A DNA stretch of 64,000 nt, taken from the NCBI RefSeq assembly GCF_022919175.1, contig NZ_CP095043.1, forward strand, positions 310,001 through 374,000, given 5' to 3'. Shown piece by piece: positions 14,540-28,664 of the stretch. This DNA comes from Leucobacter rhizosphaerae. Its GTDB lineage: Bacteria; Actinomycetota; Actinomycetes; Actinomycetales; Microbacteriaceae. Position numbers and translations under genes: made by a program. The notes beneath the pieces are model-generated. The model ran no database searches, was not told the DNA's origin, and was given only the letters and a program-made list of their open reading frames with translations. Numbering within the stretch: position 1 is the stretch's first letter; each line of letters starts with the position of its first letter.

Positions 14540-14553
14540 GAGAGCTCCTTCGC

Positions 14554-16290
14554 TCAGCTGATGGGGGCGAGCCCGGCGGTGCCGAGCTCCACACGGTGGG
14601 CGTGGCGGAGGATCTCCGTCATGCGCTCGACTTCGAGGCGTTGCGCATCGTCGTCCCACCCGAGCACCGGGGCGATCGCTGCGGCGATCTCCACGAGTGC
14701 AACGCGGGTGAGACCGCCGACGAAGGCGATCGACGTGCGTCGCAGGATCAGGTCGTCGAGATGCCGGACGTCCTCCAACTCCGCGAGGGCGGCCAGTTCC
14801 TCGACCAGGTACCCGGGCGCGGCGACCAGTTCGGTCGGCTGTGCGGGGAGCGCCGCGATCACCTCGGCGGCCTTCGTCCCGTATCGGTCGAGGAGGCGCG
14901 ACACGAGCGCCGGATCCTGCCCGCCGCCGTTCCGGGAGATCCAGATGCGACGGGAGGCGCGGTCTCGCGGAAACCCTGCGCCGCCGCCGATCACCGTCGT
15001 CCGGGTGCTGACGATCCGCTCCGCGCCGAGCACACCGAGCGCCGTATCGCCGAGATGCTCGGCGAGGGCGCGGAAGGTGGTCCATTTGCCCCCCACGAGG
15101 CTGAGCGTGGGGACGCCATCGACGCGGCCCGGCTCGATCCGATAGTCCCGCGACACGAAACCGGGCACGGTGTCGTCGTGCTTCGGCAGCGGCCGGATCC
15201 CGGAGAAGGTGTACACGATCTGCGAGCGATCGACGGAGATGGAGGGGAACACCTGCGGAATCAGGTCGAAGAAGTACTCGACCTCGTCGTCGGTGCAGAC
15301 GCTGGGCACCGAGGGGTCCGCATCGATGTCCGTGGTGCCCACCATGACGCGGTCCTTGAGCGGATAGATGAGCACGATCCGACCGTCGGAGTGCTCGAAG
15401 AACATCTCGCGGCCGGCGGTCGCGGCGAGCAGTTCGGGGTGGTCGAGCACGATGTGCGAGCCCTTCGTGCCACCCAGGTACCGGGTCGGGGCGCCGAGCG
15501 TCCGGTTCGTGAGGTCGGTCCACGGACCGCTCGTGTTGATCACGAGCCGCGCGGAGAACCCGAACTCGTCGCCGGTCTCCTCGTCGCGGAGCGTCACGGC
15601 GCCATCGGTGAACCCGACGGCGGAGACGTAGTTCGCGGCGCGGGCCGTGGTGCGTTCCGCGGAGGCGCCCGCGGCGACGCCGTCGGAGAGCACGTCGAGC
15701 GCGAGCCGCTCGGGATCGTGCATCGCGGCGTCGTAGTAGGTGGCGGTGTACTTGATCGCGGGATTGAGTCGGGGCAGTGCGCGAAGCGAGCGGCGACGGC
15801 CGTGGAACCGGTGCCGCGGGACACGGCCGCCGCCGCGCGAGAAGGTGTCGTAGAGCACGAGGCCGACCTTGATGAGGAGAGCGCCGCGTTCGCGCGGCTT
15901 GCCCCGGCCGTGCGACACGAGGAGCCGGAACGGTGCGGTCAATACACCGGAGAAGGTCTTGAAGATCGGGATCGTGGTGCGGAGCGGGACGACGTAGTGC
16001 GGCGCATTGCGGATCAGGCGGTTGCGCTCCTGCACCGCCTCCTGCACGAGACGGAACTCGCCGTTCTCGAGATAGCGGATCCCGCCGTGGACCATGTGGC
16101 TCGACGCTGAGGACGCACCGGAGACGAAGTCATCGCGATCCACCAGGGCGACGTCGACGCCCTGCAGGGCGAGCTCGCGGAACGTCGCGATGCCGTTGAT
16201 CCCGCCGCCGATGATGAGCACATCGGCCTCCGGGCGATCGCGGAGTCGCTGGACCGATGCGCGAGCGCTGGGGGTGTTCGCCTGGGGCAC
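14554..16290 (-). CDS. glpD: FAD-dependent glycerol-3-phosphate dehydrogenase
   Basis: Oxidises glycerol 3-phosphate to DHAP at the membrane and passes electrons to quinones. It is 578 residues. The FAD-binding GxGxxG motif [17 protein letters not shown] lies near residue 25, followed by [16 protein letters not shown], a DAO-family signature. The C-terminal domain (about 420-560) is the usual GlpD helical cap. GTG 16290 has GGAAGG 8 nt upstream. The gene is first in the glpD-glpK unit and is divergent from dinB; a perfect GTGACGTCAC palindrome sits in its leader. Confidence 0.95.
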
Positions 16291-16314
16291 GTGAGAGACC
16301 TTCCGTCCGGGTGC

Positions 16315-16324
16315 GTGACGTCAC
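16315..16324. promoter_or_regulatory. GTGACGTCAC palindrome upstream of glpD
   Basis: A perfect 10-nt dyad lies 25 nt upstream of the glpD start, in the 134-nt divergent region with dinB. It may be an operator for a glycerol or cAMP-type regulator. No flanking symmetry was found, so the assignment is weak. Confidence 0.35.
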
Positions 16325-16424
16325 CCCCAACGCTACAAGACACCACCGACTCTCCGCCCCGACCCTGGGCGGATCCGCAGGGTGTCGAGCGTGCGTGTCG
16401 GTGGGATGTGGTGCAATGGGTGTC

Positions 16425-17642
16425 ATGGTCGACACGCAGCGTGACATCGCATCGATGCTGCACGTCGACATGGACTCGTTCTTCGTCTCCGTCGAGCTCC
16501 TCGATCGCCCCGACCTGGTCGGGCTGCCGGTCGCCGCGGCGCACGATACGCTCCGATCGGTCGTCTCGAGTGCGAGCTACGAGGCGCGTCGGTTCGGTGT
16601 CCGCTCGGCGATGCCGGTGGCGCGAGCGAAGCAACTCTGTCCCCAACTCGTGTTGGTGCCCCCCACCTTCGAGAAGTACCGCGCCGCCTCTCGGCAGGTC
16701 ATGCGCATCTTCGAGGAGTTCACCCCGCTGGTCGAGCCGCTGAGCATCGATGAGGCGTTTCTCGACGTCGCGGGGTCGATCCGCCTGTTCGGCGCGCCCG
16801 CGGAGATCGCGCGGCAGCTCCGGGAGCGGATCCGCGGCGAGACGGGTCTCCCCGCCTCGGTCGGCCTCGCCGGCACGAAGTTCATCGCGAAGCTCGCGTC
16901 GCAGCGCGCGAAGCCCGACGGTATCCTCGAGATCCCACCGGCGCAGACCCTGGCGTTCCTGCATCCCCTGCCCATTGACGCGATGTGGGGCGTGGGTGAG
17001 GCGACGGCTCGCACACTGAGATCGCGTGCCATTCACTCGGTCGGCGATCTCGCCCGAGAGCCGCTCGACTCGCTCACCCGGCTCGTCGGGGCCGCGAGCG
17101 CCCAGCGCCTCCACGACCTCGCGAACGGTCGTGATGCCCGTCGCGTCACCACGACCCGGATCGAGAAGAGCATCGGGCACGAGGAGACCTTCGCGTTCGA
17201 CGAGCCCGATCCGACCGTGCTCCGCCGGGAGCTGCTACGTCTTTCGACCCGCACGGGCGAACGGCTGCGCGCCGCGGGGCTCGAGGCGCGGACCGTCGCG
17301 ATCAAGGTGCGCTGGTCGAGCTTCGAGACCGTCAGCCGGTCGCGCACGCTGGCGGAGGCGACGCACGCGACGCAGCGGATCTATCAGACCGCATGCGAAC
17401 TCTTCGACGGCCTGCGCGCCACGGGCACGCCCGTGCGACTTATCGGAGTGCGCGCCGAGCAACTCCAGCCGGAGGGCAGCGACCTTGCGGCGCTCTGGAG
17501 CGAGGACGAGAGCTGGCGCGCGGTCGACCAAGCCGTGGACGACGTGAAGCACCGGTTCGGGGCGGCCGGAGTGAAATCGGCGAGCCTGCTCCAGGGTCGC
17601 GGGCCGGTCGTCGATCCCCGCTCGCTCGAGCCGCCCGCCTAA
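16425..17642 (+). CDS. dinB: DNA polymerase IV (Y family)
   Basis: An error-prone polymerase for translesion synthesis. From ATG 16425 it has 405 residues; ATG 16416 is an alternative. TGCAAT 7 nt before 16425 decided the choice. The catalytic acidic residues are in HVDMDSFFVSVE and in SIDEAFLDV; the palm, the HhH thumb (MWGVGEATARTLRS) and a little finger follow. The C-terminus (GVKSASLLQGRG) is close to the family end, but no clear beta-clamp motif of the QLxLF type is seen. No LexA box was found upstream. Its stop overlaps the convergent DUF2017 stop by 4 nt. Confidence 0.93.
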   Translation: MVDTQRDIASMLHVDMDSFFVSVELLDRPDLVGLPVAAAHDTLRSVVSSASYEARRFGVRSAMPVARAKQLCPQLVLVPPTFEKYRAASRQVMRIFEEFTPLVEPLSIDEAFLDVAGSIRLFGAPAEIARQLRERIRGETGLPASVGLAGTKFIAKLASQRAKPDGILEIPPAQTLAFLHPLPIDAMWGVGEATARTLRSRAIHSVGDLAREPLDSLTRLVGAASAQRLHDLANGRDARRVTTTRIEKSIGHEETFAFDEPDPTVLRRELLRLSTRTGERLRAAGLEARTVAIKVRWSSFETVSRSRTLAEATHATQRIYQTACELFDGLRATGTPVRLIGVRAEQLQPEGSDLAALWSEDESWRAVDQAVDDVKHRFGAAGVKSASLLQGRGPVVDPRSLEPPA

Positions 17643-18262
17643 GCCCGGTCGGAAGCGTCGTCCGCGGATCCGTCAGCGTCGTCGCCGTCGTCCCCGTCCA
17701 GGAGTGCTCCGCCCTGCATCATGAGTGCCGCTTCGAGGATCGCCGCGAGCCAGTCGAAGACGAGCACCGTGCCGCGAGTCTCCTCGTCCTCCAAGAGGCG
17801 GTCGTGGTCTTCGGCGGTGTCGAGGCCGATGCGGGCGGCGATCGCCAGCCTGAGGGCCGTGACCGTGCGCGCCCACGCAGGCAGGGTCGTGGTCGAGATA
17901 TCGACCTCGATCACGGCATCCTCAGACGGGAGCCCGCCACCGAGCCCGAGCGCGGTCGTGACCTGGATCGCATCCTGGAGCTTGCGGTTCAAGAGTCCCT
18001 GCTCTGTGACCCGACGGAACTGCGTGGCGTCGGCGTCGTCCTCGTAGGCGTTCGGGAACAACCGCGCGAGCGCGGGATCCTCGGGGACGTCATCCGACCC
18101 GCCGACCTCGAGGCTCGCGAAGAGCGGATCCGGATCGAGGGCCGTGCCGCTGTGGCTCTGAAGCAACTGCATGAGCTGTGCGACGAGCTGATCCAGCATC
18201 GCCGCCTCGTCGACCTCCAGGTGCAGGCGCAAGCCGCCCTCGGGCAGGGGGAGCAGCTTCAC
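17639..18262 (-). CDS. DUF2017 family protein
   Basis: A 207-residue cytoplasmic protein of the actinobacterial DUF2017 family, of unknown function. The start is GTG 18262 ([15 protein letters not shown]), which overlaps the clpS stop (GTGA). The body is helical and acidic, with a conserved-looking [21 protein letters not shown] segment, and the last ~20 residues are an Asp/Ala-rich tail. DUF2017 is commonly found directly after clpS in actinobacteria, as here, which suggests a link with Clp proteolysis; that is inference only. Confidence 0.85.
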
Positions 18263-18558
18263 TCCGCACCTCCCTGGAGCACGGTGGCCCACAGCCCGTA
18301 GCCGTGCAGAGCCTCGACGTGCATCTCCATCGTCTCGCGCGATCCCTCGGCCACCACGGCCTTGCCCTGGTGGTGCACCTGGAGCATGAGTTCCTCGGCG
18401 CGCGCACGCTCGAATCCGAAGTGGGTCTGGAAGACGTAGGCGACGTAGGACATGAGGTTCACCGGATCGTCCCAGACCACCGTCTGCCACGTCGGATCCG
18501 GCGTCGCGTCCGTCCGGGCGCTCACGCCGGCGCCCGGCTGCGCCTGCGTCGCGACCAT
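18259..18558 (-). CDS. clpS: ATP-dependent Clp protease adaptor ClpS
   Basis: Delivers N-degron substrates to the Clp chaperone. It is 99 residues, with an N-terminal unstructured tail of about 28 residues and then the ClpS core: [18 protein letters not shown] (the DDPxN substrate-pocket motif), a helix ending [15 protein letters not shown], and METHVEAL-like [18 protein letters not shown] 18558 overlaps the stop of the upstream zincin gene by one base, and its own stop overlaps DUF2017. The three genes therefore form a tight translationally coupled unit. Confidence 0.93.
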
Positions 18559-18905
18559 CAGCCCCACCCGAGTTCGTGGATGCGCTCCTCGGAGATGCCG
18601 TAGAAGTGAGCGATCTCGTGGACGAGGGTGATGCGGATCTCCGCGACGAGCTCATCCATATCGGCGCAGTGGGCAGCCAGGTTCTCGCGGAAGAGGATGA
18701 TGCGGTCGGGCTCTTCTCCGTACCCGTAGACGTTCCGCTCGGCGAGCGAATACCCCTCGTACACCCCGAGAATGGCGCTACCGTCCTCGGGCCGATCCTC
18801 GACCAGGAAGATGACGTTGTCGAGCTGCGCGAGCATGTCGTCGTGGAGCGAGTCGAGGCCGTCGGAAACCAACGACTCGAACATTTCGGATGTCACCTCG
18901 ACCAT
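18558..18905 (-). CDS. Zincin-like metallopeptidase family protein
   Basis: A 115-residue member of the small zincin family PF06262. The zinc motif [18 protein letters not shown] is near the C-terminus, with HExxH, the following Gly and the terminal LG typical of the family. Substrate unknown. ATG 18905 is preceded by TAGGGT 6 nt upstream, so the message is probably leaderless, and this is the promoter of the zincin-clpS-DUF2017 unit. Confidence 0.85.
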
Positions 18906-18965
18906 GGCTTCACCCTATCGGGCGGAGTGCCGCGCGGGGAGTGAATATCCGGTGTGCGGCGGTGT

Positions 18966-18994
18966 GAACATCGCACCCGAAGATAGGCTATGAT
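18966..18994 (+). promoter_or_regulatory. Promoter of tRNA-His
   Basis: TATGAT (18989-18994) is a good -10 box, 42 nt before the tRNA. The -35 (around 18966, gaacat) is weak. Confidence 0.5.
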
Positions 18995-19035
18995 CGTAGG
19001 GTTGCCTCGTTCGCCCCGGCGGATGCGGCCAGCAT

Positions 19036-19112
19036 GGTGGCTATAGCTCAGTTGGTAGAGCACCGGCTTGTGGTGCCGGTGGTCGCGGGTTCAAGTCCCG
19101 TTAGCCACCCCA
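19036..19112 (+). tRNA. tRNA-His (GTG)
   Basis: A complete cloverleaf: acceptor GTGGCTA (19037-19043) pairs with TAGCCAC (19102-19108). The anticodon loop cttgtggt carries GTG. The extra 5' G (position -1, 19036) opposite C73 is the tRNA-His hallmark. CCA is encoded (19110-19112). Confidence 0.95.
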
Positions 19113-19116
19113 CAGT

Positions 19117-19152
19117 ACCGCCCCGTCTCGGAGTGCTCCGCGGCGGGGCGGT
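19117..19152 (+). terminator. Terminator of tRNA-His
   Basis: ACCGCCCCG (19117-19125) pairs with CGGGGCGGT (19144-19152), and the loop contains a second small cgga/tccg stem. It starts 4 nt after the encoded CCA. Confidence 0.75.
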
Positions 19153-19227
19153 GTGCTTGTCACGAGATCCCGAAGGTCGGCTGTCTGGGGGACTCTCGAC
19201 CCCTTCTTACCCATACCTCCCTTTTTC

Positions 19228-19353
19228 GTGTGAGCGGGTTCCGTTGCGCTTCGCGTGTTCTGCCCCAGATATCGCTCACACGAGGGGCGGTGCTCGAAGG
19301 CGTGACCGATTTCTGGCCGATGTACCTCGCTCCGCAACGGAACGCGCTCACAC
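19228..19353. repeat. Long inverted repeat in the gap after tRNA-His
   Basis: The 303-nt gap 19113-19415 holds no gene. Besides the tRNA terminator it holds two 21-nt arms, 19228-19248 and 19333-19353, which are inverted copies matching at 20 of 21 positions (core GTTCCGTTGCG). A third, partial inverted copy (cgctcacacga) lies inside, near 19275. The arms are 84 nt apart. Nothing in the spacer codes for a recognisable protein. See the separate finding. Confidence 0.7.
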
Positions 19354-19415
19354 CAGTGCGCGGGGGCATGAGAGTGCACCTGGCGGAGCGGCGCGCAGAC
19401 GTGCACACTGGACAC

Positions 19416-19841
19416 ATGGCTGAGAATGCGACCCAGATCACGGACGCCGACCCGCACGCCTTCATCGAGAAAGCGACGCCGGCGAAGCGCCGTCTCGACG
19501 GTCTGGCACTCGCGCAGATCTTCCGCGAGGTGACCGGAGAGGACCCGAAGATGTGGGGTCCCTCGATCGTGGGGTACGGCAGCTATCGCTACATCTCGCC
19601 CTCCGATTCGCGGCGCCGAGGCGACTGGCCGAAGACCGGCTTCTCGCCGCGCAAGGCGCAGCTCTCGCTCTACGGACTGAAGGACCTGCCCGACGGGGCC
19701 CGGCTGCTGCCCGAACTCGGCACCTACACCGAGGGTGCGGGGTGCGTGTACGTCCGGAAGCTCGAGGACATCGACGAGACGGTCCTCCGTCGGCTGATCG
19801 CGATCGCCTGGTCCAGGCAGGACGATCCCGAACCGAACTGA
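19416..19841 (+). CDS. DUF1801 domain protein
   Basis: A 141-residue protein with the DUF1801 (YdhG/Fra-like) fold seen in the run RRLDGLALAQIFREVTGEDP, MWGPSIVGYGSYRY and FSPRKAQLSLYGL. Family function is unknown; some members are annotated as iron chaperone-like without proof. ATG 19416 has CACACT 6 nt upstream, in line with leaderless starts here. The frame is open further upstream through the inverted repeat into the tRNA, but that part is not protein-like. The end runs into a GAACCG-type repeat. Confidence 0.82.
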   Translation: MAENATQITDADPHAFIEKATPAKRRLDGLALAQIFREVTGEDPKMWGPSIVGYGSYRYISPSDSRRRGDWPKTGFSPRKAQLSLYGLKDLPDGARLLPELGTYTEGAGCVYVRKLEDIDETVLRRLIAIAWSRQDDPEPN

Positions 19842-19885
19842 CCGGAGCCGAACCGGACTGACCCGAACCGAACCGGAACCGAGCC
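19827..19885 (+). repeat. Degenerate GAACCG-type short repeat at the 3' end of the DUF1801 gene
   Basis: CCCGAACCGAAC occurs twice (from 19827 and from 19862), with related CCGAACCGG, GGAGCCG and GGAACCG units between. It begins inside the last codons (DPEPN) and fills the gap to the convergent ThiF-like gene. It looks like slippage-generated sequence. Confidence 0.6.
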
Positions 19886-19891
19886 GTCTGA

Positions 19892-20833
19892 TCAGCGGGC
19901 CGCGCGGCTCGCGATCTCGGGGAGCGTGTAGTTCGCGAGCGGGTTCAGCCCCAGCTTCTGCCGGGCGGCCGCCATGAGCAGGTGCCGCACGTGTGCGCCC
20001 CGTCCCGCGCGCACGATGCGCGTGCGCAGCCGATAGGCGTCGGTGTAGGCCATCCGCGGAGCCCAGATCGGCGAGCGGCGGCGGTTCGAGACCCCGGCGG
20101 TGAGGTGCAGGAAGGCCTGGGTCGTGCCGATGGCGGAAGCGACGTCCACGCCGATCGAGATCGACGGCAGGGGTGCGGGATCGACCCCGTCATCCCCGAC
20201 CACGGCCTCGAGCGAACGCAGGTCCGTGTAGGGCGGGATGTAGGGGAGGCAGCGTGCGAAGTCGACCCCGCGTTCCGCGATCTCCGCAAGGGGAGTGTCC
20301 GATGCGAATCCCATGAATCGCTCGAAGGTCCAGGGGGAGTCCGGCGCGAACGAGGTGACCTGGGCGGAGAACCCGACGTTCATGACGAGGAGGTCGGGGA
20401 TGCCCTGCGCCCGAGCGCGGCGGGCGATCAGCGAACCGATCTCGGGCCGAGTGAGCTCGGATTCGTCGAGCACCAGGGACGCCCCGCGCATGAAGTCCTC
20501 GACGTTGTCGGGGGTGACTCCCTGCAGGAAGACGTCGATCTCGGCCTCGGGATTGATGTCGAGCACACGATCTCGGAAGACCTCCGCCTTGTTCCGTCCG
20601 AACGTGGAGACGGACGCCCCCTCGACGCGGTTGACGTTCTCGGGTTCGAACACCTCCGGATCCGCGATGCTGAACCGCGAGACCCCCATGCGCGCGAGCT
20701 TGAGGCCGAGCTGGAACCCGTCCCCGCCCACGCCGGCGATCGCCACGCGAGACGACGTGATGGCGCGCTGCTCGTCCTCGCTCCAGAATCCGTAGTTGCG
20801 CGAGAATTCGGGAGACGAGATGGATCGGGCCAT
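19892..20833 (-). CDS. E1/ThiF-like adenylyltransferase of an uncharacterised GNAT-linked family
   Basis: A 313-residue protein with a Rossmann fold of the ThiF/MoeB/E1 superfamily. Visible elements: the nucleotide loop AGVGGDGFQLGLKLARMG near residue 33, the strand ending IADPEVFEPENVNR with the conserved Asn-Arg, FGRNKAEVFRDRVLDINPEAEI with the conserved Lys and the INP turn, and the switch region LVLDESELTRPEIG. There is only one cysteine (DFARCLPYI) and no CxxC zinc ribbon, unlike ThiF and MoeB; no ThiS/MoaD-like protein is encoded nearby. Adenylation of a small carboxylate is therefore more likely than sulfur-carrier activation. The start overlaps the stop of the GNAT gene by one base. 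Confidence 0.8.
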   Translation of the reverse strand: MARSISSPEFSRNYGFWSEDEQRAITSSRVAIAGVGGDGFQLGLKLARMGVSRFSIADPEVFEPENVNRVEGASVSTFGRNKAEVFRDRVLDINPEAEIDVFLQGVTPDNVEDFMRGASLVLDESELTRPEIGSLIARRARAQGIPDLLVMNVGFSAQVTSFAPDSPWTFERFMGFASDTPLAEIAERGVDFARCLPYIPPYTDLRSLEAVVGDDGVDPAPLPSISIGVDVASAIGTTQAFLHLTAGVSNRRRSPIWAPRMAYTDAYRLRTRIVRAGRGAHVRHLLMAAARQKLGLNPLANYTLPEIASRAAR

Positions 20834-21603
20834 CAGGCGGCCCGGTTCCGGAGCGTGCCGCGCGAGGCGCGTCCGAAGTAGGTCAGGGCGGGTTCGGCAG
20901 CGCGGTACCCGTCGATCGAGTCGCTGTTCCGCGTGTTCACCTTGTCGATGGACGCCGGGATATCGACCTCGATCGGCAGGTTGTAATCGAGGTAGTGCTC
21001 GACGTACGTGGGCTCGCCGATGCGCTGGATCGCGAGCACACCCACGAGATGGCGCTCCAGCCAGGGCTCGATGATCGCGAAGGTGCGCTCGTGCTGGTGC
21101 TTGGAGATGTAGGCCAGCATCATCGCGAAGAGGTGGTACTGGATCACGTCCTGCAGCACGGCGGTCTCATGACGCGCGATGACGCGGGACACCTCGACGC
21201 ACGAGGCGGTGACGTCGCCCGGCCCGAAGGATTCGGGACAGAACTCCTCGACCGGCAGCGGCACGGTATCGCCGCGCACGATGAGGCGCGCGACGCCGAC
21301 CACGCGCACGCCCTCCTCGTGATTCTCAAAGACGGCGAAGGTGACCGAGCGCGCGTCGTCGTCGTCGCGGTCCGTGCCGTCCTCGTTCAGCTCGCTCGCG
21401 TCGAGCTGGCCGGTCTGGTCGACGTACACCCGCCGACGGAGGTCGAAGTGCGCGCGGTACTCGTCCTCGAAACCGGGGAGCGGTACCCCGTTCACCGCCA
21501 GCAGGCCGCAGGCGAGACGCGACGCGGGTTCGGCCTCGAACAGGTCCGACTGCACTACCGGAATGACCTGGTGATTGGTGATCGAACGATCAATGTGCGA
21601 CAA
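20833..21603 (-). CDS. LuxI/FeeM-like GNAT acyltransferase
   Basis: A 256-residue protein of the acyl-homoserine-lactone-synthase-like branch of the GNAT superfamily. Seen: the N-terminal YRAHFDLRRRVYVDQTGQL (equivalent to the Arg-rich start and acidic substrate loop of LuxI), an Asp/Glu-rich segment DGTDRDDDD, the strand VVGVARLIV, and ASCVEVSRVIARHE, matching the catalytic E-x-SR motif. The C-terminal ~50 residues are an extra segment. The start is TTG 21603, fixed by AAAGGAC 7 nt upstream. It is followed by and coupled to the E1-like gene. Family knowledge predicts an N-acyl amino acid, lactone or amide product; the substrate is unknown. Confidence 0.75.
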   Translation of the reverse strand: MSHIDRSITNHQVIPVVQSDLFEAEPASRLACGLLAVNGVPLPGFEDEYRAHFDLRRRVYVDQTGQLDASELNEDGTDRDDDDARSVTFAVFENHEEGVRVVGVARLIVRGDTVPLPVEEFCPESFGPGDVTASCVEVSRVIARHETAVLQDVIQYHLFAMMLAYISKHQHERTFAIIEPWLERHLVGVLAIQRIGEPTYVEHYLDYNLPIEVDIPASIDKVNTRNSDSIDGYRAAEPALTYFGRASRGTLRNRAA

Positions 21604-21672
21604 CGACGGCGTCCTTTCGGAGTGCAGTCAGATGTAATTGCCGTCGCCAGTTCATGATTCCCCCCGGATCGT

Positions 21673-21720
21673 GAACTCAGATGAGTTCGTCAGAGACTCA
21701 TTCTGCCCTACAAGTGAGTC
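21673..21720. promoter_or_regulatory. Clustered dyads between the GNAT gene and the TetR-like gene
   Basis: In the 231-nt divergent gap, GAACTC-AGAT-GAGTTC (21673-21688) is a perfect 6-bp dyad. It is followed by GACTCA (21695-21700) and TGAGTC (21715-21720), an inverted pair 14 nt apart. All share the core ACTCA/TGAGT. These are likely operator sites for the neighbouring TetR-like regulator, controlling one or both directions. The local sequence is more AT-rich than its surroundings. Confidence 0.55.
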
Positions 21721-21834
21721 AGAACTGGTGCAGACGCGTTCACGCGGCGGGTCGTGTCGGAGTCTGTGCGTCGGCAATGCGGAGGAATCGGAAAAAGCGG
21801 TGAAACGACGGCGCGAATTGATACCATGGTGCAA

Positions 21835-22698
21835 ATGGGTGACGTGTCGATTGGGGTGATGGTGCCGGAAGAGAATTGGAATCGTGACGGCAGCCCGCGC
21901 GCAGACTCCGCTTCCACGGATGCCCGCGCCCGCATTCTGGACAGCGCGACACGGTACGTCGACACCGTTGGCTTGACGCTCGGGGCGAATCCTGCGCTCA
22001 TCGCCCAGCTGTCGTCCGACGCCGGAGTCACCCTGAAGCAGTTCTCCAAGATCTGGGCGACTCCCGAAGATTTCCTCACCGACCTGTTCTGCGAGCTGGC
22101 GAACCAGGCGCAGATCGATCGCGCCGACACCGAGACACTGCTCACGACCTGGCAGTACCTCGGCATGCGGATTGACGACCTCCGGTCGCCGGAGGGGCGG
22201 CGACGGGTGCTCAGCAGTGTGATCCGCACCGCCGCGGAGTACAACTTCAATGTCGTCACCGCGTCCGGCAAGTGGCGCACGTACGCGGCGCTCTCCACGA
22301 CCATCATGGCGTGGCCGGAGGGTGAGGCCCGGACCCGCGTGATCGACGCGCTCCGAGCGAGCGAGCTGGCGTTCGTCGAGACGATGGAGAGCTTCTACCG
22401 CAACGTCCTGCCGACACTCGGCTATCAGCTGCGGTCGGAGTTCCACAACGACTATCAGCCGTTCGTGGTGGCGACCGCCTCGGTGATCGAGGGGCTCGGC
22501 ATCGTCCGCGCCACCGTGCCGGCGCTCGTGGAGGCGCACTTCGACTTCCCGTCGGCGGAGGACAGCGAGACCTGGTCGGTGGCCGCGCTCGCCTTCATCG
22601 GCGTCCTGGACGCGTTCTTCGAGCCGATCCCGAACTTCGTGCCCGATGAAGCGATCGCGCGCCTGAGTGGCGGGATCGACGTCACCCCGCAGTCCTAG
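21835..22698 (+). CDS. Long TetR/AcrR-like regulator divergent from the GNAT/E1-like pair
   Basis: A protein of 287 residues from ATG 21835, which has TACCAT 7 nt upstream; ATG 21826 and 21859 are alternatives. Residues about 27-85 (ARARILDSATRYVDTVGLT ... LKQFSKIWATPEDFLTDLF) look like a TetR N-terminal domain with a divergent helix-turn-helix, in which the usual SxxxxYxxFxxK is KQFSKIWATPED. The all-helical ligand domain is about 200 residues, longer than the usual 120-140. Divergent placement and the dyads between make it the likely regulator of the GNAT operon and possibly the receptor for its product. A convergent terminator follows. Confidence 0.75.
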   Translation: MGDVSIGVMVPEENWNRDGSPRADSASTDARARILDSATRYVDTVGLTLGANPALIAQLSSDAGVTLKQFSKIWATPEDFLTDLFCELANQAQIDRADTETLLTTWQYLGMRIDDLRSPEGRRRVLSSVIRTAAEYNFNVVTASGKWRTYAALSTTIMAWPEGEARTRVIDALRASELAFVETMESFYRNVLPTLGYQLRSEFHNDYQPFVVATASVIEGLGIVRATVPALVEAHFDFPSAEDSETWSVAALAFIGVLDAFFEPIPNFVPDEAIARLSGGIDVTPQS

Positions 22699-22708
22699 AC
22701 CGGCGCGC

Positions 22709-22732
22709 GTCGGGCGCGCCCGACCGTCGGGC
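22709..22732. terminator. Terminator between the TetR-like and GGDEF-EAL genes
   Basis: Three copies of the same 7-mer in alternating orientation (GTCGGGC, GCCCGAC, GTCGGGC) fill the convergent gap and give two overlapping hairpins: 22709-22724 (8-bp arms) and 22718-22732 (7-bp arms). Confidence 0.65.
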
Positions 22733-24937
22733 TCAGCCGCCGATCGATGCCTGGTCTCCCCACCGCCGGAGTCGCTCCGACGACTGAGCGCGGGAGATCG
22801 GGCGCCCGAAGTAGTACCCCTGGGCGTTGCGGACCCCGAGTTCGATCATGATGTCCACCATCGCCGCGCTCTCAATACCCTCGACCACGGTCGTGTAGCT
22901 GAGGTTGTCGCCGAAGCCCTGCAGCGACTTCACGACCTCCCGCTGGCGCAGGTCATCGAGATCGTCGATCAGACTCTTGTCGATCTTCAAGATGTTCATC
23001 GGGAAGTGCACGAGCGCTCCCACCGAGGAATCGTCGGAACCGTAGTCGTCGAGCGCGATGCTCACTCCGGCCTTCTGCAGCAGGAGGGCGTCGCGCCGCA
23101 GCTCGTCGGTCACGGAGCGGAGCGACCGCTCGTTCAGCTCGATGCAGAGAGTGAGATCGGGGTGTGCGCGCGCCGATTCCCGCAGGAACGGCCCGAGCTC
23201 GCTGTCGCTGATCTGTCCCAGCTCGAGATTGACCGTCATGCACCGGATCGCCGGGGCGAGGCGGTGGAACTCCTCGGCGGCGTCGAGCGCCTTGGTGATG
23301 ATCTGCTTGGTCAACTCGTTCATCATGCCGAGGCTTTTCGCACGGGCGACGAGGGACGGTGGGGAGATCGGCCCGAGCTCCGGATCGACGTACCTGACCA
23401 GGGCCTCGTGGGCCCAGACCCGGCCGTCGGTGATGTTCACGATCGGCTGGAACGCGAGCATAAGGCGATTGTCGCGAATGGCGCGGGCGACGATTTCATT
23501 GGTGCGGGACGATCGGTGCGACGAAATACTGACGCTGCTGGCTCCCGACGATGACGCGCCTTGACGGCGCGAACGCTTGGCCTGCAGCATCGTGCGGTCC
23601 GCATCCTCGACGAGCGTCTGGGCGTCGAGCTCGCGGTGGTTCGAGAACGCGAGACCCGCGCTGAGCACGGGGCGCATGTCGTGCCCCTCCAGTGCGAGTG
23701 GCTGGCTGACGGCCTCGATGATCCGGTCGGACGTCTCCTTCGCCTGCTCCAGCGAGAGGAGGTCGGTGAGGATCACCACGAACTCGTCGCCACCCACGCG
23801 CGACACGAAGTCCCCGCCACCCGCGGCCCCCTGCAGTCGGTCGGCGACGGCGCGCAGCAGCTCATCGCCCGCCCGATGCCCGAAGTTGTCGTTGAGCTTC
23901 TTGAAGTTGTCGAGGTCGATGAAGAGCAGCGCGATGCCCTCGCGATACGGTCGGTTCTCGTTTGCGTCGATCAGGGCCTTCTGGAAGGCTCCGTAGTTGG
24001 GGAGCCCCGTCAGGGCGTCGCTGTTCGCGCGACGCTCGAGCAGGTCCACCTCGGTCTGGATCCGAGCCGCCTCACTCGCCACGTGGGCCAGCGCGGCGAC
24101 GGCCCGCTCGTCCTCCCGGGCGAACGTCGCCTGACCCGGTCCCCGCGACGCCACCAGATACTGCGCCGGGCCTGAGCCGAGCGTGATCGGGACCCCGATC
24201 TCCTTTTTCCCCGGCGGACGGTCGCGGAACTCGACATCGCTCGCCTGCACGATGGCGCGGGTACGCTCGCGCAGCCCCTCGGCGAGTTCGTCGCCGGTGT
24301 GGCGGGGGAGTTCGACGGCGGCGTCGACCACCGCGCTCATCCGGGCCTCGTTGCCGAGGTAGCGGCGGCGCTGCGCCAGGATGTACATGAGCGATGCGGC
24401 GAGCAGGATCACGAACGGCGTCAGATCCGCCAGCGGATCGCGCTCCAACCACGGGATCACCGAGGCGTCGACGAGCGTGAGGATCGTCGCGAGCACCGAG
24501 ACGATGAGCACGACGCCGCCCAGCTTCGGCAGGCTCAACGCCCCCACGCCGCTCCGCTCGTCGGTCGTGGTGCGTCCCCGCTGCCGAACGAGTTCGCCCA
24601 GCAGGAAGACGAGATAGTACGCGGTGGTGGCGAGGAGGAACGTCGGCAGCAGCCAGACGCCGAGATCGAGGAGCGTCGACTTCACCGCCACGAACGCGAA
24701 TGCGGAGGTCGATCCGAGACCCGTGAGGTACATCGCCTGGAGGAGGCTGCGACGGGCGAAGAGCTGCGAGACGAGCAGACCGATCGCCCAGATGCTGACG
24801 TCGAGATAGGGCGACGCCTCCACGGATTGAATCGCGAGCATCACGATGGCGACGCCGACGAGCGGGAACCCGGGGCGGCGACCCACGTGCAGTTGGAACG
24901 GAGCGCAGATGATCACGCTCGCGATCAGGGCCAGCAC
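22733..24937 (-). CDS. Membrane-bound GGDEF-EAL protein (c-di-GMP turnover); 5' end interrupted by a frameshift
   Basis: The intact frame gives 734 residues from GTG 24937: several membrane helices (about 1-210), a GAF-like segment, a GGDEF domain with an intact RVGGDEF site, then an EAL domain. The EAL catalytic residues appear complete: EALVRY, Asn in VNLELG, IELNE, ALDDYGSDDSS, LKIDKS, VVEGIES and the Gln of NAQGYYFG. No RxxD inhibitory site precedes GGDEF. Both synthesis and hydrolysis of c-di-GMP are therefore possible. The reading frame begins in the middle of a membrane segment; the missing N-terminus is upstream in another frame. orn lies upstream on the same strand. Confidence 0.9.
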   Translation of the reverse strand: MLALIASVIICAPFQLHVGRRPGFPLVGVAIVMLAIQSVEASPYLDVSIWAIGLLVSQLFARRSLLQAMYLTGLGSTSAFAFVAVKSTLLDLGVWLLPTFLLATTAYYLVFLLGELVRQRGRTTTDERSGVGALSLPKLGGVVLIVSVLATILTLVDASVIPWLERDPLADLTPFVILLAASLMYILAQRRRYLGNEARMSAVVDAAVELPRHTGDELAEGLRERTRAIVQASDVEFRDRPPGKKEIGVPITLGSGPAQYLVASRGPGQATFAREDERAVAALAHVASEAARIQTEVDLLERRANSDALTGLPNYGAFQKALIDANENRPYREGIALLFIDLDNFKKLNDNFGHRAGDELLRAVADRLQGAAGGGDFVSRVGGDEFVVILTDLLSLEQAKETSDRIIEAVSQPLALEGHDMRPVLSAGLAFSNHRELDAQTLVEDADRTMLQAKRSRRQGASSSGASSVSISSHRSSRTNEIVARAIRDNRLMLAFQPIVNITDGRVWAHEALVRYVDPELGPISPPSLVARAKSLGMMNELTKQIITKALDAAEEFHRLAPAIRCMTVNLELGQISDSELGPFLRESARAHPDLTLCIELNERSLRSVTDELRRDALLLQKAGVSIALDDYGSDDSSVGALVHFPMNILKIDKSLIDDLDDLRQREVVKSLQGFGDNLSYTTVVEGIESAAMVDIMIELGVRNAQGYYFGRPISRAQSSERLRRWGDQASIGG

Positions 24938-25053
24938 CTGGGTCCAGGAGTCCGGGGGATCACGACCGTGAGCGCCACGCCGGTGCCGATGGTGCCGGCG
25001 GCGATCGCGACGAACACCCCGACCCAGACGAGGCTACGCTTCGACGTTTCCAT
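24938..25053 (-). pseudogene. Displaced N-terminal fragment of the GGDEF-EAL gene
   Basis: From ATG 25053 this frame encodes METSKRSLVWVGVFVAIAAG and a further hydrophobic stretch, then runs out of frame and stops at TGA. One added base in the G run at 24954-24958 (C run on the coding strand) would join it to the 734-residue frame and complete a membrane helix, giving about 773 residues. It may be a real mutation, a phase-variable tract or a sequencing error. A GTG at 25065 is an alternative start. Confidence 0.7.
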
Positions 25054-25170
25054 CCCCCTGAACACGGCCCCTCTATCCGGTGTGACGACCCCTCATCACG
25101 CTCTCCTGCAGAATAGTGTCCATCATGGCATGCGCGGAGCCCGCCGCACCGCCCAAGGCGAAGAGCGCGC

Positions 25171-25809
25171 TCAGGCGATGAGGCCGTCGATCAGGGCGGC
25201 GTAGCGCTCACTCGTGGCCTGCGACGTCGCTGCCGAGGCGCTCTTGTCGGGTCCGGGGGCGGGCTGCATCACCGTGTCGCGGAAGTAGGCGAGCTCCTGG
25301 ATCGACTCTGCGATGTCCGCGAGGGCGCGGTGCCCGCCGCGCTTCGCGGGAGCGCCGAAGTAGGCCGCCGGGTACCAGCGGCGGCTGAGTTCCTTGATGG
25401 TGGAGACATCGATGCTCCGGTAGTGCAGCGTCTCCTCGAGTGCGGGCAGGTACTTCGCGATGAAGCGGCGATCCATGCCGATCGTGTTGCCGGCCACCAG
25501 CGGGCGCCGGCCCGCAGTGACGAGACCGCTGAGGTAGTCGATCACCTGCGCCTCCGCGTCGACGAGCGAGGCGCCGGAGGCGATGCGGGGGAGGAGCCCC
25601 GAGGTCTCGTGCATCTCGCGGACGAAGTCGCCCATGTTCGCGAGGGCCTCTTCACCGGGGTTGATGACGATCTCGAACCCGGGATCGAGCGGCGTGAGAT
25701 CGAAGTCGGTGACGATGACCGCAATCTCGCAGAGCCCGTCTCGATCGACGTCGAGGCCCGTCATTTCGCAGTCAATCCACACGATCTGCTCGGCGGGGGT
25801 GTTCGACAC
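25171..25809 (-). CDS. orn: Oligoribonuclease
   Basis: A DEDDh 3'-5' exoribonuclease that degrades 2-5 nt RNAs, including pGpG from c-di-GMP breakdown. It is 212 residues. Exo motifs: I WIDCEMTGLD, II GNTIGMDRRFIAKYLP, III with HRALADI (His and Asp). The last ~25 residues are a variable tail. GTG 25809 has a GAGGAG ribosome site, and a TAGACT box lies about 50 nt upstream. The neighbouring GGDEF-EAL gene begins about 118 nt downstream on the same strand. Confidence 0.96.
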   Translation of the reverse strand: MSNTPAEQIVWIDCEMTGLDVDRDGLCEIAVIVTDFDLTPLDPGFEIVINPGEEALANMGDFVREMHETSGLLPRIASGASLVDAEAQVIDYLSGLVTAGRRPLVAGNTIGMDRRFIAKYLPALEETLHYRSIDVSTIKELSRRWYPAAYFGAPAKRGGHRALADIAESIQELAYFRDTVMQPAPGPDKSASAATSQATSERYAALIDGLIA

Positions 25810-25906
25810 GCGGACTCCTCGGGGTCGGGCGCCGGCCGGCCGGTGGCGCTGCGGGACAGTCTATCCGTGTGCATGCGAACAGGCCGCCCGCACTAGGCTG
25901 GGATCC

Positions 25907-26470
25907 ATGGCAGTTCTCCCCATCACGATCTGCGGTGAGCCCGTGCTGCACCGCCCCGCCGCGCCCGTCACGGAGTTCGACGCGTCGCTCCGCGCACTCG
26001 TCGACGACATGTACGAGACGACCGTCGCGGCCCCGGGCGTGGGACTCGCGGCGCCCCAGGTGGGCGTCGGCAAGCGGATCTTCGTGTGGATGTACGAGGA
26101 TCAGGACGTCGCCCCCGAGCGCGGTGTGGCGATCAATCCCGAGCTGTGGGTCTCCCCGCAGGATCCGGGGCTGCCCGGTGAGGACGAGGTGGAGGGGTGC
26201 CTGTCGTTCCCGGGGGAACGCTTCGCACTGCGACGCTCCGAGCGTGCGATGCTGCGGGCCCAGGACATCGACGGCACGCCGTTCGAGATCACCGCGTCGG
26301 GCTGGTTCGCGCGGATCCTGCAGCACGAATTCGACCACCTGAACGGTCTGCTTTACGTCGATCGCCTGGTGCACCCGGAGAGCCGCGGCGCGCAGAAGGC
26401 GGAGCGGAAGAACGGCTGGGGCAAGCCCGGGCTCACGTGGCTGCCCGGGGTCGACGACCTGGAGGGCTGA
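25907..26470 (+). CDS. def: Peptide deformylase
   Basis: Removes the formyl group from new polypeptides. It is 187 residues from ATG 25907, which has TAGGCT 7 nt upstream (leaderless type). All three motifs are present: GVGLAAPQVG, EGCLSFPGE with the zinc-binding Cys, and LQHEFDHLNG with the two zinc-binding His and the catalytic Glu. It is divergent from orn and convergent with the SDR gene. Confidence 0.97.
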   Translation: MAVLPITICGEPVLHRPAAPVTEFDASLRALVDDMYETTVAAPGVGLAAPQVGVGKRIFVWMYEDQDVAPERGVAINPELWVSPQDPGLPGEDEVEGCLSFPGERFALRRSERAMLRAQDIDGTPFEITASGWFARILQHEFDHLNGLLYVDRLVHPESRGAQKAERKNGWGKPGLTWLPGVDDLEG

Positions 26471-26483
26471 GCTCCGAGACGGC

Positions 26484-27308
26484 TCAGTCGAGCCCTTTCT
26501 CGTCTTGGATCGCGTTGCCGCCATCCACGACGATCACCTGTCCGGTGACGTATGAGGCAGCGGGGGACGCGAGGAACTCGATCACGGCGGCGACCTCGTC
26601 GGGGGTGCCGGATCGGCCGAGCGGCGTCGCGTCGCCCATCCGGTTCTCGTGCGCCGTGGCCGAGCCGGTGCGGATCCAGCCGGGGGCGACCGCGTTCGCC
26701 GTCGTTCCGCTCCCCGCGAGATCCACTGCGAGCGATCGGGTGAGCCCGACGAGCCCCGCCTTCGCTGCGTGGTACCCGACGTCGCCGCGGTAGGCCAGAA
26801 TGGGCCCCGACACGGACGAGACGGTCACGATGCGCCCGGCGGTCGACCGTTCGAGGTGCGGGATCGCCGCCCGGGTGACGAGGAACGCGGTGGTGAGATT
26901 CCGCCGGATCGTGTGCTCCCACCCGACGGGGTCGAGCCCGTCGATCGATGCGGGCCGTTCGGGATCGGACGTCGAGGTCATGCCCGCGTTGTTCACCACC
27001 ACGTCGAGGCGCCCGAAGGCCTCGATCGCCGTGCGCACCGCCAGCTCCGCCCCGGCCTCCTCGGTGAGGTCCGCGACGAATGGCACCACCTCGGCGCCGG
27101 CCGGTCCGGACCGCAGGTCGCGCGCCCGATCCTCGATCCGAGCCGAGGTGGCTCCGATCACGAGCCGATAGCCGGCCCGGGCCAGACGCGCCGCCGCCGC
27201 GAAGCCGATGCCGTCGGGGGAACCCGCGCCGGTGATCAGGGCGACCCGTGCCGGAGCGCCGGATGCTGCCGCGGATGAGGTGTGCTGAGCGAGATCGGGC
27301 TGCGTCAT
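26484..27308 (-). CDS. Short-chain dehydrogenase/reductase (FabG-like)
   Basis: A 274-residue classical SDR. The cofactor motif is TGAGSPDGIGFA, followed by DVVVNNAGM, the catalytic Ser in VTVSSVSG and YHAAK as the YxxxK pair, then the C-terminal YVTGQVIVVDGG. The spaced Gly motif with an inserted PD and the NADP preference are not decidable by eye. Substrate unknown. ATG 27308 has its own TAGGCT box 6 nt upstream, although the MFS gene ends only 18 nt before it, so it may be transcribed alone or with the transporter. Confidence 0.88.
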   Translation of the reverse strand: MTQPDLAQHTSSAAASGAPARVALITGAGSPDGIGFAAAARLARAGYRLVIGATSARIEDRARDLRSGPAGAEVVPFVADLTEEAGAELAVRTAIEAFGRLDVVVNNAGMTSTSDPERPASIDGLDPVGWEHTIRRNLTTAFLVTRAAIPHLERSTAGRIVTVSSVSGPILAYRGDVGYHAAKAGLVGLTRSLAVDLAGSGTTANAVAPGWIRTGSATAHENRMGDATPLGRSGTPDEVAAVIEFLASPAASYVTGQVIVVDGGNAIQDEKGLD

Positions 27309-27326
27309 AGTGGCAGCCTAGCCGGG

Positions 27327-28541
27327 TCAGCCGTCGGCGTCAGCGGATGGGCGCTGCAGCCGACGGGAATCGGGGACGATGAGCCATGCCACGCCCGCGA
27401 GCGCCAGGATCGCCGCGGTGACCCCGAAGGCCCAGCCGAATCCGGCGGCGTCGACGATCGCTCCGGCGATCAGCGGGCCGAGCACCCCGCCGAGGTCGCT
27501 CGTCATCGAGTAGGCCGCGACGACGTTGCCGCCGCGGCGCAATCCCACCACGTCTGCGAGTACGGCCTGCTGCCCGGGGTTCACGAGTGCGGATCCCGCT
27601 CCGGCGACGAACATCACCCCGATGGCGACCCACACCGATGGCGAAGCCGGGAACACCAGGTACGTCGCCGCGAGGACGAACATCCCGATCACGAGCATGG
27701 GCTTGCGACCCACCGTGTCGTTCCAGCGCCCGGACGGGAAGATCAGCACGGCGTTGCCCGCGGCGTAGGCCGCGAGCACCCAGGCCGCGACCGCCGCGTC
27801 TCCGCCGAGCGCCACCGCGACGAAGATCGGGATGACCGAGACGCGGACGCCGTATGAGGCCCAGCCGAAGGTGAAGACCGACGCGAGGAGTGAGCGGTAC
27901 TGGGAGACGCCGAGCGCCTGAGCGAGCGAGATCGCCTCCCGAGCATCCGGCGATCCCGCGATGACCTTCGCCATCTGGGACCGGCGCAGCGCGACCGCCA
28001 CCACGGTCGCAGCGGCGACGAGGGTGATGAAGTAGAAGACGAACGGCGCACGGAGACCGAACGACGCCACGATGCCGCCGAACACCGGTCCGAGCAGCCC
28101 GCCGAGGAGGAATCCCGCGGCGTTCAAGCTGGCGACGCGGCCGCGAGCGAGGGGCGGGCTCACCTTGATGAGCAGCGCCGTCGCGGCGACGGTGAACATG
28201 GTGGAGCCGACGCCGCCGAGGCCGCGGAGGATGACGAACTGCGTGTAGTCCATCGCGAGCGCGGCCGCGCCGGTCGAGAGCGCCACGATGAGGATCCCGG
28301 TGCTGTAGGTCCGCCGCTCGCCGAACCGGCCGACGATCCAGCCCGCCAGCGGTGCGGAGAGCAATCGCATCAGAGCGAAGGCGCTGACGATCGCGGATGC
28401 GGCGAAGGCGCTGACGCCGAACTCGAGCGCGAACTGCGGAATGGCGGGCGCGACGACCCCGTACCCCAGTGCCACCGTGAACCCGCCTGCGACGAGCGCC
28501 CAGACCTCGAAGGGAAGCTTCTGGGGAGCGGAGTCGTGCAC
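27327..28541 (-). CDS. MFS transporter, 12-helix drug-resistance type
   Basis: A 404-residue protein with 12 predicted helices. Helix 1 carries GYGVVAPAIPQFALEFG, the loop after helix 2 is GWIVGRFGERRTYSTG (the MFS A motif), and helix 5 contains GPVFGGIVASFG. This pattern suits a DHA1-like exporter of small molecules; the substrate is unknown. GTG 28541 follows TAGGCT by 6 nt. A perfect TCCGTA/TACGGA dyad sits about 27 nt further upstream, near the expected -35. Confidence 0.88.
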   Translation of the reverse strand: MHDSAPQKLPFEVWALVAGGFTVALGYGVVAPAIPQFALEFGVSAFAASAIVSAFALMRLLSAPLAGWIVGRFGERRTYSTGILIVALSTGAAALAMDYTQFVILRGLGGVGSTMFTVAATALLIKVSPPLARGRVASLNAAGFLLGGLLGPVFGGIVASFGLRAPFVFYFITLVAAATVVAVALRRSQMAKVIAGSPDAREAISLAQALGVSQYRSLLASVFTFGWASYGVRVSVIPIFVAVALGGDAAVAAWVLAAYAAGNAVLIFPSGRWNDTVGRKPMLVIGMFVLAATYLVFPASPSVWVAIGVMFVAGAGSALVNPGQQAVLADVVGLRRGGNVVAAYSMTSDLGGVLGPLIAGAIVDAAGFGWAFGVTAAILALAGVAWLIVPDSRRLQRPSADADG

Positions 28542-28567
28542 CTGCCCAGCCTAGTGCCGCGCGAGAT

Positions 28568-28583
28568 TCCGTAGTTTTACGGA
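28568..28583. promoter_or_regulatory. Operator-like dyad between the MFS and deacetylase genes
   Basis: TCCGTA-GTTT-TACGGA is a perfect 6-bp inverted repeat in the 123-nt divergent gap, about 15 nt beyond the MFS -10 box. Which regulator binds is unknown; the LuxR gene at 29.8 kb is the nearest candidate. Confidence 0.45.
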
Positions 28584-28664
28584 TCACGGGTCGGGCCGGA
28601 GTGGGGGACGATGTCGGAGACGGCGGGCAACGCAGCCTCGCCGCATCGGAGAAGGGACCGTCGC

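Follow-up and report, generated by a model that had tools for sequence, protein, structure and literature searches.

What do a LuxI-like acyltransferase and an E1/ThiF-like enzyme make when they are encoded as one unit beside a long TetR-fold regulator, and which genes respond to the product? We asked this of a 64,000-nucleotide stretch of Leucobacter rhizosphaerae DNA (NZ_CP095043.1, positions 310,001 to 374,000; hereafter the window), whose source genome is a single contig of 3.34 Mb and whose nearest named protein relatives likewise carry the name Leucobacter. In our reading, which we put at about an even chance, the two enzymes jointly synthesize a small diffusible signal in two steps, and the neighboring genes form the receiving and output side of this synthase. 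The genes of this cassette are listed here.

19892 to 20833, minus strand: E1/ThiF-like enzyme, a predicted ATP-dependent N-acyl amino acid cyclase; 313 amino acids (aa), Pfam ThiF match
20833 to 21603, minus strand: LuxI/FeeM-like N-acyltransferase of the Gcn5-related N-acetyltransferase (GNAT) kind; 256 aa, TTG start
21835 to 22698, plus strand: long regulator with a TetR fold; 287 aa counted from the Met codon at 21835, open reading frame (ORF) listed from 21754
22733 to 24937, minus strand: GGDEF-EAL cyclic di-GMP (c-di-GMP) enzyme; 734 aa, Pfam EAL and GGDEF, hydrophobic N-terminal segments

The original prediction, made from the letters of the window alone, had located both enzyme ORFs correctly, including their 1-nt overlap (ORF list; TGATG junction). 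The regulator gene is divergent from the enzyme pair and convergent with the GGDEF-EAL gene. Distribution of the cassette was patchy in a genus sample of 54 genomes, source genome included: the acyltransferase was found in 21, and the regulator and the GGDEF-EAL gene (E 1e-100) in an identical set of 23. The GGDEF-EAL gene therefore belongs to the cassette, and the range first proposed, 19892 to 22698, holds for the genes within it but ends before this member. The usual ThiF gene adjoins the acyltransferase gene in 18 of the 21 genomes, counting G021 (L080), where it lies at the other contig end of a presumably circular chromosome; the ThiF beside the acyltransferase of G046 (L065) is only 31% identical. 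Regulator and acyltransferase genes diverge in 20 of the 21 genomes; in the exception, G022, both run the same way and ThiF is absent from the stretch examined (L077:9243-10010). Two genomes carry the regulator without the usual acyltransferase, namely G008, whose contig ends within the regulator, and G049 (L078).

At E 1e-40, a ThiF profile matched 27 of 398 family genomes, in 6 of 85 genera. We examined 20 of the 21 matches outside the genus (G441 was left out) and found an adjoining acyltransferase in all 20, a divergent regulator in 17, and a GGDEF-EAL gene in eight. A scan of named genomes by two peptide patterns, many of them overlapping with the family and genus surveys, gave 36 loci, 30 from Leucobacter, Cryobacterium, Agreia, Herbiconiux, and unplaced relatives, five from Candidatus Saccharibacteria (ThiF 53-61% identical), and one from Acetobacterium dehalogenans (59%). 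The acyltransferase lies directly upstream of ThiF in 36/36, although in the Acetobacterium locus (L205) the nearest copy is split across two frames. The original prediction had named homologues found mostly apart as evidence against it; with 20 of 20 non-genus loci, all 36 named loci, and four gene fusions described below, they are instead found together, and it is near certain that the two enzymes act jointly.

The strongest support for a signal comes from the relatives in Saccharibacteria. ThiF was matched at E 1e-40 in 13 of 392 sampled genomes of that class; four of the 13 appear to coincide with named loci, and the distinct loci examined number 14 (L199, L204, L206, L208, and L212 from the named scan, plus L226-L234). 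Their E1 enzymes are about 35-60% identical to the window ThiF. The next gene downstream of ThiF encodes a histidine kinase of one family in all 14 loci, its frame running off the contig end in L204, L208, L229, and L232. Receiver-domain genes lie within ~5 kb in 13 of 14 (L208 has too little sequence), and in 11 loci the nearest is divergent and within ~620 bp. A Pfam domain check covered four of these kinases and two receivers, the cut kinase giving only a weak 7TM match. Four of the 14 loci carry acyltransferase and ThiF fused in a single reading frame (548-561 aa), with Pfam matches to ThiF and weakly to FeeM or Autoind_synth; the FeeM cut-off is reached in 2/4. Kinases in 14/14 loci, receivers in 13/14, and fusions in 4/14 carry the reading most strongly, and sensor neighbors in several lineages (histidine kinases, GGDEF-EAL enzymes) favor the signaling role that had been proposed from the window alone; we consider such a role moderately likely. 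A profile comparison (21 versus 10 sequences) of the N-terminal sensor regions of the Leucobacter GGDEF-EAL protein and the Saccharibacteria kinase gave a probability of 0.3%, and homology between them was rejected. The Acetobacterium stretch (L205:6313-11905) contains two acyltransferase-ThiF pairs and an extra intact acyltransferase, the split gene being the one directly ahead of the first ThiF.

We built trees from selected rows (44 for ThiF, 42 for the acyltransferase; midpoint roots), in which some branches are long. The main Microbacteriaceae type of ThiF is a clade (91/89) whose neighbors are Saccharibacteria L199, L204, and L206 (89/86), nested in a broader group that joins Saccharibacteria rows with Acetobacterium rows (81/78, 93/98). 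A second Leucobacter type (L078, L065) falls elsewhere, with Saccharibacteria L227 and L231 (83/87). The acyltransferase tree has deep Saccharibacteria rows outside Microbacteriaceae and places genus g45 otherwise than does the ThiF tree. Both trees agree on the closeness of the two phyla and differ in details, with key forks below a strict support mark. Exchange of synthase genes between the two phyla is likely from these trees, with no direction assigned.

Eighteen LuxI homologues adjoining sensory kinases were reported in 2020 from bacteria of the candidate phyla radiation (CPR) and were read as makers of N-acyl homoserine lactones (AHLs) (PMC7567580). That arrangement resembles the Saccharibacteria loci in placing a LuxI-like gene beside a kinase, and the two sets may overlap; the main text of that paper, which interprets the genes as AHL synthesis, nowhere mentions ThiF. 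Cultivated Saccharibacteria grow on actinobacteria (PMC10633639); we recognized no Leucobacter host in open-access literature and claim no specific host pair. The widest form of our proposal, which we regard as speculative and on the whole unlikely, is that the synthase product belongs to a new autoinducer class (a saturated oxazolone bearing an acyl group, or a compound derived from it) and is read by a membrane kinase in Saccharibacteria and by TetR plus a c-di-GMP enzyme in Microbacteriaceae, the synthase genes having crossed phyla, such that epibionts and host-type bacteria may hear each other. If true, the LuxI-like proteins of Saccharibacteria would be recast as makers of products other than AHLs, and the cassette would give chemical exchange between these epibionts and actinobacteria a concrete candidate. 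Because pairs of this kind adjoin dedicated sensors in both phyla, the proposed signal is directly testable with the synthase and sensor of one locus. Acyl-oxazolones are a compound class of recent date, and their physiological role is a major unresolved question according to their discoverers (PMC12856293).

We then considered each enzyme in turn. The window acyltransferase matches Pfam Acetyltransf_5 at 22.9 bits (cut-off 22.4) and FeeM at 26.1 bits, just below the cut-off of 27; neither Autoind_synth nor any solved structure was matched by its sequence at E up to 1. Structure prediction had been proposed as a check, and the model is nearest to CoA-dependent AHL synthases, which top the fold lists, and to FeeM. 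The E-x-SR motif noticed earlier (EVSRVIA) is residues 137-143; E137 is invariant in 42/42 aligned relatives and R140 is kept in 40/42, with R56, D80, D83, and R106 likewise kept in all 42. These residues and Y60 are what we take, from spacing, to be the LuxI-type set, the position of LuxI Trp34 being Gln. FeeM and the CoA-dependent LuxI enzymes BjaI and RpaI share the fold, and presumably this core, with the window protein, at 16-22% identity in structural alignments. Fold model and family matches thus suggest a LuxI/FeeM-like GNAT of the N-acyl amino acid synthase type. The model of TyzA, an acyltransferase of tyrazolone synthesis, is also nearest to FeeM and BjaI (PMC10404671).

The second enzyme is a clear ThiF-family protein (Pfam E 6.4e-27, 94.7 bits, cut-off 28.1). 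Its top NCBIfam scores, each under its cut-off, are PRK08223 (a stand-alone family, ranked first), PRK14851 (next), and PRK14852; the oxidase half of a TrzS-like protein is likewise a match to the PRK14851 model. The alignment shows GxGGxG, D58, N68-R69, and K82 to be kept. Cys195 is its single cysteine, so the zinc Cys4 is missing, as the original prediction had it. Equally in line with that prediction, no ThiS/MoaD-like carrier was seen near the pair: the ORFs of at least 50 aa ending in GG at 14000-30000 are the GGDEF-EAL gene and a 118-aa minus-strand frame at 19101 that overlaps a tRNA gene, and shorter or differently ended carriers would escape this search. The enzyme thus lacks the zinc Cys4, and has no plausible partner encoded nearby, of the kind that mark a sulfur-carrier E1 (ThiF/MoeB). 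MccB, named for comparison at the outset, is related only distantly (E about 8e-4). Among solved structures the best sequence match is TcdA (1.5e-21 with a profile), of which only the N-terminal ATP-binding part aligns. TcdA/CsdL (tRNA ct6A dehydratase; PDB 4d7a, 4rdh) has the same ATP site and likewise lacks zinc Cys4, and the ring that it forms closes at a carboxylate to give an oxazolone. Its substrate is a tRNA, in which it cyclizes t6A (PMC4405576), unlike the substrate proposed for the cassette enzyme.

Taken together, the families suggest a pathway in which the GNAT would move an acyl group from acyl-CoA (or acyl carrier protein) to the amino group of an amino acid, leaving the carboxylate free, and the ThiF-like enzyme would activate that carboxylate with ATP. 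Attack by the amide oxygen would then close an oxazol-5-one ring. Characterized pathways with both enzyme kinds (Oxz, Tyz, Trz) use a flavin oxidase in addition to make acyl-oxazolones (PMC10404671, PMC12856293), and the earlier statement that no described system has this composition is accordingly incorrect. In Tyz (TyzA, TyzB, TyzC; tyrazolones) and in Oxz of Pseudoalteromonas rubra, the order is the one proposed for the cassette, N-acylation followed by ATP-dependent ThiF-type cyclization (PMC10404671); the oxidase is separate in Tyz and fused in Oxz. Trz (TrzA-TrzS; tryptazolones of mycobacteria and Rhodococcus) also has an acyltransferase gene beside a ThiF-like cyclase, with c-di-GMP genes nearby (PMC12856293). 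TrzS is fused to its oxidase, and its ThiF domain is 28-30% identical to that of the cassette over ~148 aligned positions. The portions of PMC12856293 drawn on here mention no TetR of the cassette's kind for Trz, and neither they nor those of PMC10404671 describe a dedicated sensor for Tyz or Oxz.

No such oxidase, a flavin-dependent enzyme of the nitroreductase superfamily, was found fused or adjacent to the window pair with a profile made from four TrzS-like oxidase halves, which misses ordinary nitroreductases and could miss a very divergent oxidase. The profile (E 0.01) found none in the 23 genus genomes holding the regulator. In 21 other family genomes it matched nine, G206 at 3e-12 and the rest at 4e-5 or weaker, with no match near the cassette. 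Two source genomes among five further genomes gave strong matches, with additional oxidases there; two of three genomes of the actinobacterial lineage f25 matched weakly and the third did not. Nothing was found in 5/5 Saccharibacteria or Acetobacterium genomes, an empty answer that alone shows little, or in the searched loci apart from the loci that supplied the profile. The source genome has three PF00881 places, all at least 0.8 Mb from the cassette even round the circle. In vitro, TrzS with limited oxygen or a mutated oxidase yields the cyclized saturated intermediate (PMC12856293), so a two-enzyme pathway is chemically possible, and with no ring-desaturating oxidase found the product would be an oxazolone that stays saturated, or what hydrolysis or aminolysis makes of it. 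N-acylation of an amino acid is quite probable, and ring closure by the E1-like enzyme is somewhat favored. Acylation followed by carboxylate activation, the chemistry first suggested, is kept as the best fit to these families. In composition the cassette is not wholly new. In Microbacteriaceae, the pair would be under the control of the divergent TetR-fold protein, which may bind the product, while the GGDEF-EAL enzyme would tie the circuit to c-di-GMP; in Saccharibacteria, the pair would feed a membrane histidine kinase with receiver proteins.

Several observations weigh against this scheme. In the DxxD motif of E1 enzymes the second Asp is presumably catalytic, and 39 of 44 aligned rows, including the window protein (D123-E-S-E126), have Glu there; only L078, L065, L234, and both TrzS rows have Asp. 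The Glu126 column appears to correspond to Asp217, the adenylation-motif Asp of Mycobacterium smegmatis TrzS, and among TrzS-like rows the second motif position is Asp in 4/4 and the first in 1/4. The cyclized saturated species was not detected in the producing strains of PMC12856293, as far as the text drawn on here reports. Beside the cassette, GGDEF-EAL is absent from 12 and TetR from three of the 20 non-genus family loci, and the two Acetobacterium pairs have no kinase of the Saccharibacteria kind within their stretch. Cassette genes are inherited as one block, so co-occurrence within the genus does not represent many independent events. G007 (L063) and G022 (L077) keep acyltransferase and regulator with no ThiF in the stretch examined. 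In G049 (L078:10223-11765), the cassette's place is taken by another acyltransferase (25% identical) and by a ThiF of 32% identity whose motif reads DGTD, while the regulator is ordinary and the usual kind of GGDEF-EAL gene is kept; this swap fits poorly with a product-specific TetR. Together with the two loci without ThiF, it suggests that the chemistry is flexible and makes a tight match between TetR and one ligand less probable. Direct sensing of the cassette product by the TetR protein is accordingly, in our estimate, less likely than not.

The regulator itself, a divergent protein of 287 residues as first described, has no Pfam match. Its AlphaFold2 model (predicted local distance difference test, 85.1) has TetR-family proteins as best structural matches, and we assign it a predicted TetR fold with an N-terminal helix-turn-helix. 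A search (7999 candidates scored) gave 105 regulator proteins, with Leucobacter, Cryobacterium, Agreia, and unplaced Microbacteriaceae as named sources. Two features lie between the regulator and the acyltransferase gene.

21699 to 21710, minus strand: 12-bp element TAGGGCAGAATG, preceding the acyltransferase gene; a likely promoter or site for a regulator
21675 to 21719, no strand assigned: ACTCA/TGAGT dyads, locally enriched, without conservation

The dyad cluster had been offered as a feature of this gap. Four ACTCA/TGAGT copies lie in 21604-21834, and at least four occurred in only 12 of 5000 random 231-bp window pieces and five of 5000 letter shuffles, so the enrichment in the window exceeds chance. 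Conservation was not found: across 36 homologous gaps, 28 had no copy and eight had one, which rules out a conserved operator of this kind. The pattern T[AG]G[GT]GCA[CGA]AAT[GA], in contrast, has TAGGGCAGAATG as its only match in the 64 kb of the window; among 22 further loci it has a single match in 14 and none in eight, six of the latter having near variants by eye. By this conservation TAGGGCAGAATG is probably an intergenic promoter or regulator site. From the element to the acyltransferase start (21604-21698, minus strand), several Leucobacter leaders have, by eye, inverted repeats whose letters vary between species; these may form a hairpin in the RNA or mark an operator that drifts.

The alternative that survives best, which we consider unlikely, is a conventional oxazolone-type pathway on the model of Tyz and Trz that yields a stress or membrane lipid; the N-acyl amino acid or oxazolone from the pair would be no signal, and the TetR protein would be a house repressor answering acyl-CoA or stress. 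Tyz and Trz employ the same enzyme kinds, and their products are partly cell-bound with a role left open (PMC10404671, PMC12856293). The regulator's structural matches include the fatty-acyl-CoA regulators DesT and FadR, although TetR folds all look alike, and in L078 the exchange of both enzymes left a regulator of the ordinary type. Against this account stand the kinase gene coupled to the pair in every Saccharibacteria locus and the GGDEF-EAL gene present in all 23 genus genomes with the regulator.

We judge it improbable that the E1-like enzyme instead joins its activated substrate, the N-acyl amino acid, with an amine or an alcohol, giving an amide or ester and no ring. Oxazolones react with amines and water, and the Asp-to-Glu change in the DxxD motif may alter the outcome. 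Oxazolones were also not observed in three compound families with comparable clusters, according to the text drawn on from PMC12479983. Characterized homologues cyclize, however (PMC10404671, PMC12856293), and no conserved second enzyme was seen beside the pair besides the sensors, in neighborhoods whose genes were not annotated one by one.

Slimmer still is the case for a true AHL synthase whose product the E1-like enzyme merely tailors or clears. The LuxI-type residues are retained, and CPR LuxI homologues are filed under AHL synthesis (PMC7567580). Moreover, five of 10 tested acyltransferases from Saccharibacteria and Acetobacterium pass Autoind_synth (38.2, 34.1, 30.6, 29.7, and 28.7 bits; cut-off 24), as does that of f25 locus L157 (37.7 bits). 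Last, activation of a protein or peptide carrier, or conjugation of the acyl amino acid to protein as in E1-E2 ubiquitin-like defense, is highly improbable: PADLOC E1-E2 models match weakly (best 47 bits) and only over the common nucleotide-binding part, no plausible carrier-like GG-ending ORF lies nearby, and the partner in the relatives examined is the acyltransferase. A defense role was rejected on the weakness of these matches.

Under the preferred signal reading, the GGDEF-EAL enzyme would be the output in Microbacteriaceae. The protein scores 170.5 bits for EAL and 126.6 bits for GGDEF and has several hydrophobic segments at its N terminus by hydropathy; the source genome has three EAL matches. 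The frame is open upstream to 766 aa and most relatives are ~775-815 aa, so the listed GTG start may be too late. All four TrzS-like loci (L161-L164, one genus) have a GGDEF-EAL gene within an 18-kb stretch, directly adjoining TrzS in L164 (domain checks covered L161 and L164), and PMC12856293 also remarks on c-di-GMP genes near the trz locus. The TrzS-like proteins of L161 and L164 pass NCBIfam Rv1355c (980 and 932 bits; cut-off 476).

An overlapping acyltransferase-ThiF pair in f25 has GGDEF genes on both flanks (L157:6070-12646). In another actinobacterial family (L165, L169, L173, L176), a ThiF-like gene lies 1-2 kb from a GGDEF gene, which in L165 and L169 has a receiver-like N terminus; these and other loci, in which the profile used found no acyltransferase, were set aside from the argument. 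One further feature was noted at the edge of the cassette.

19037 to 19112: tRNA-His gene, ~0.8 kb from the cassette

In L063, L077, and L078, too, the cassette has peptide readings typical of tRNA genes close by.

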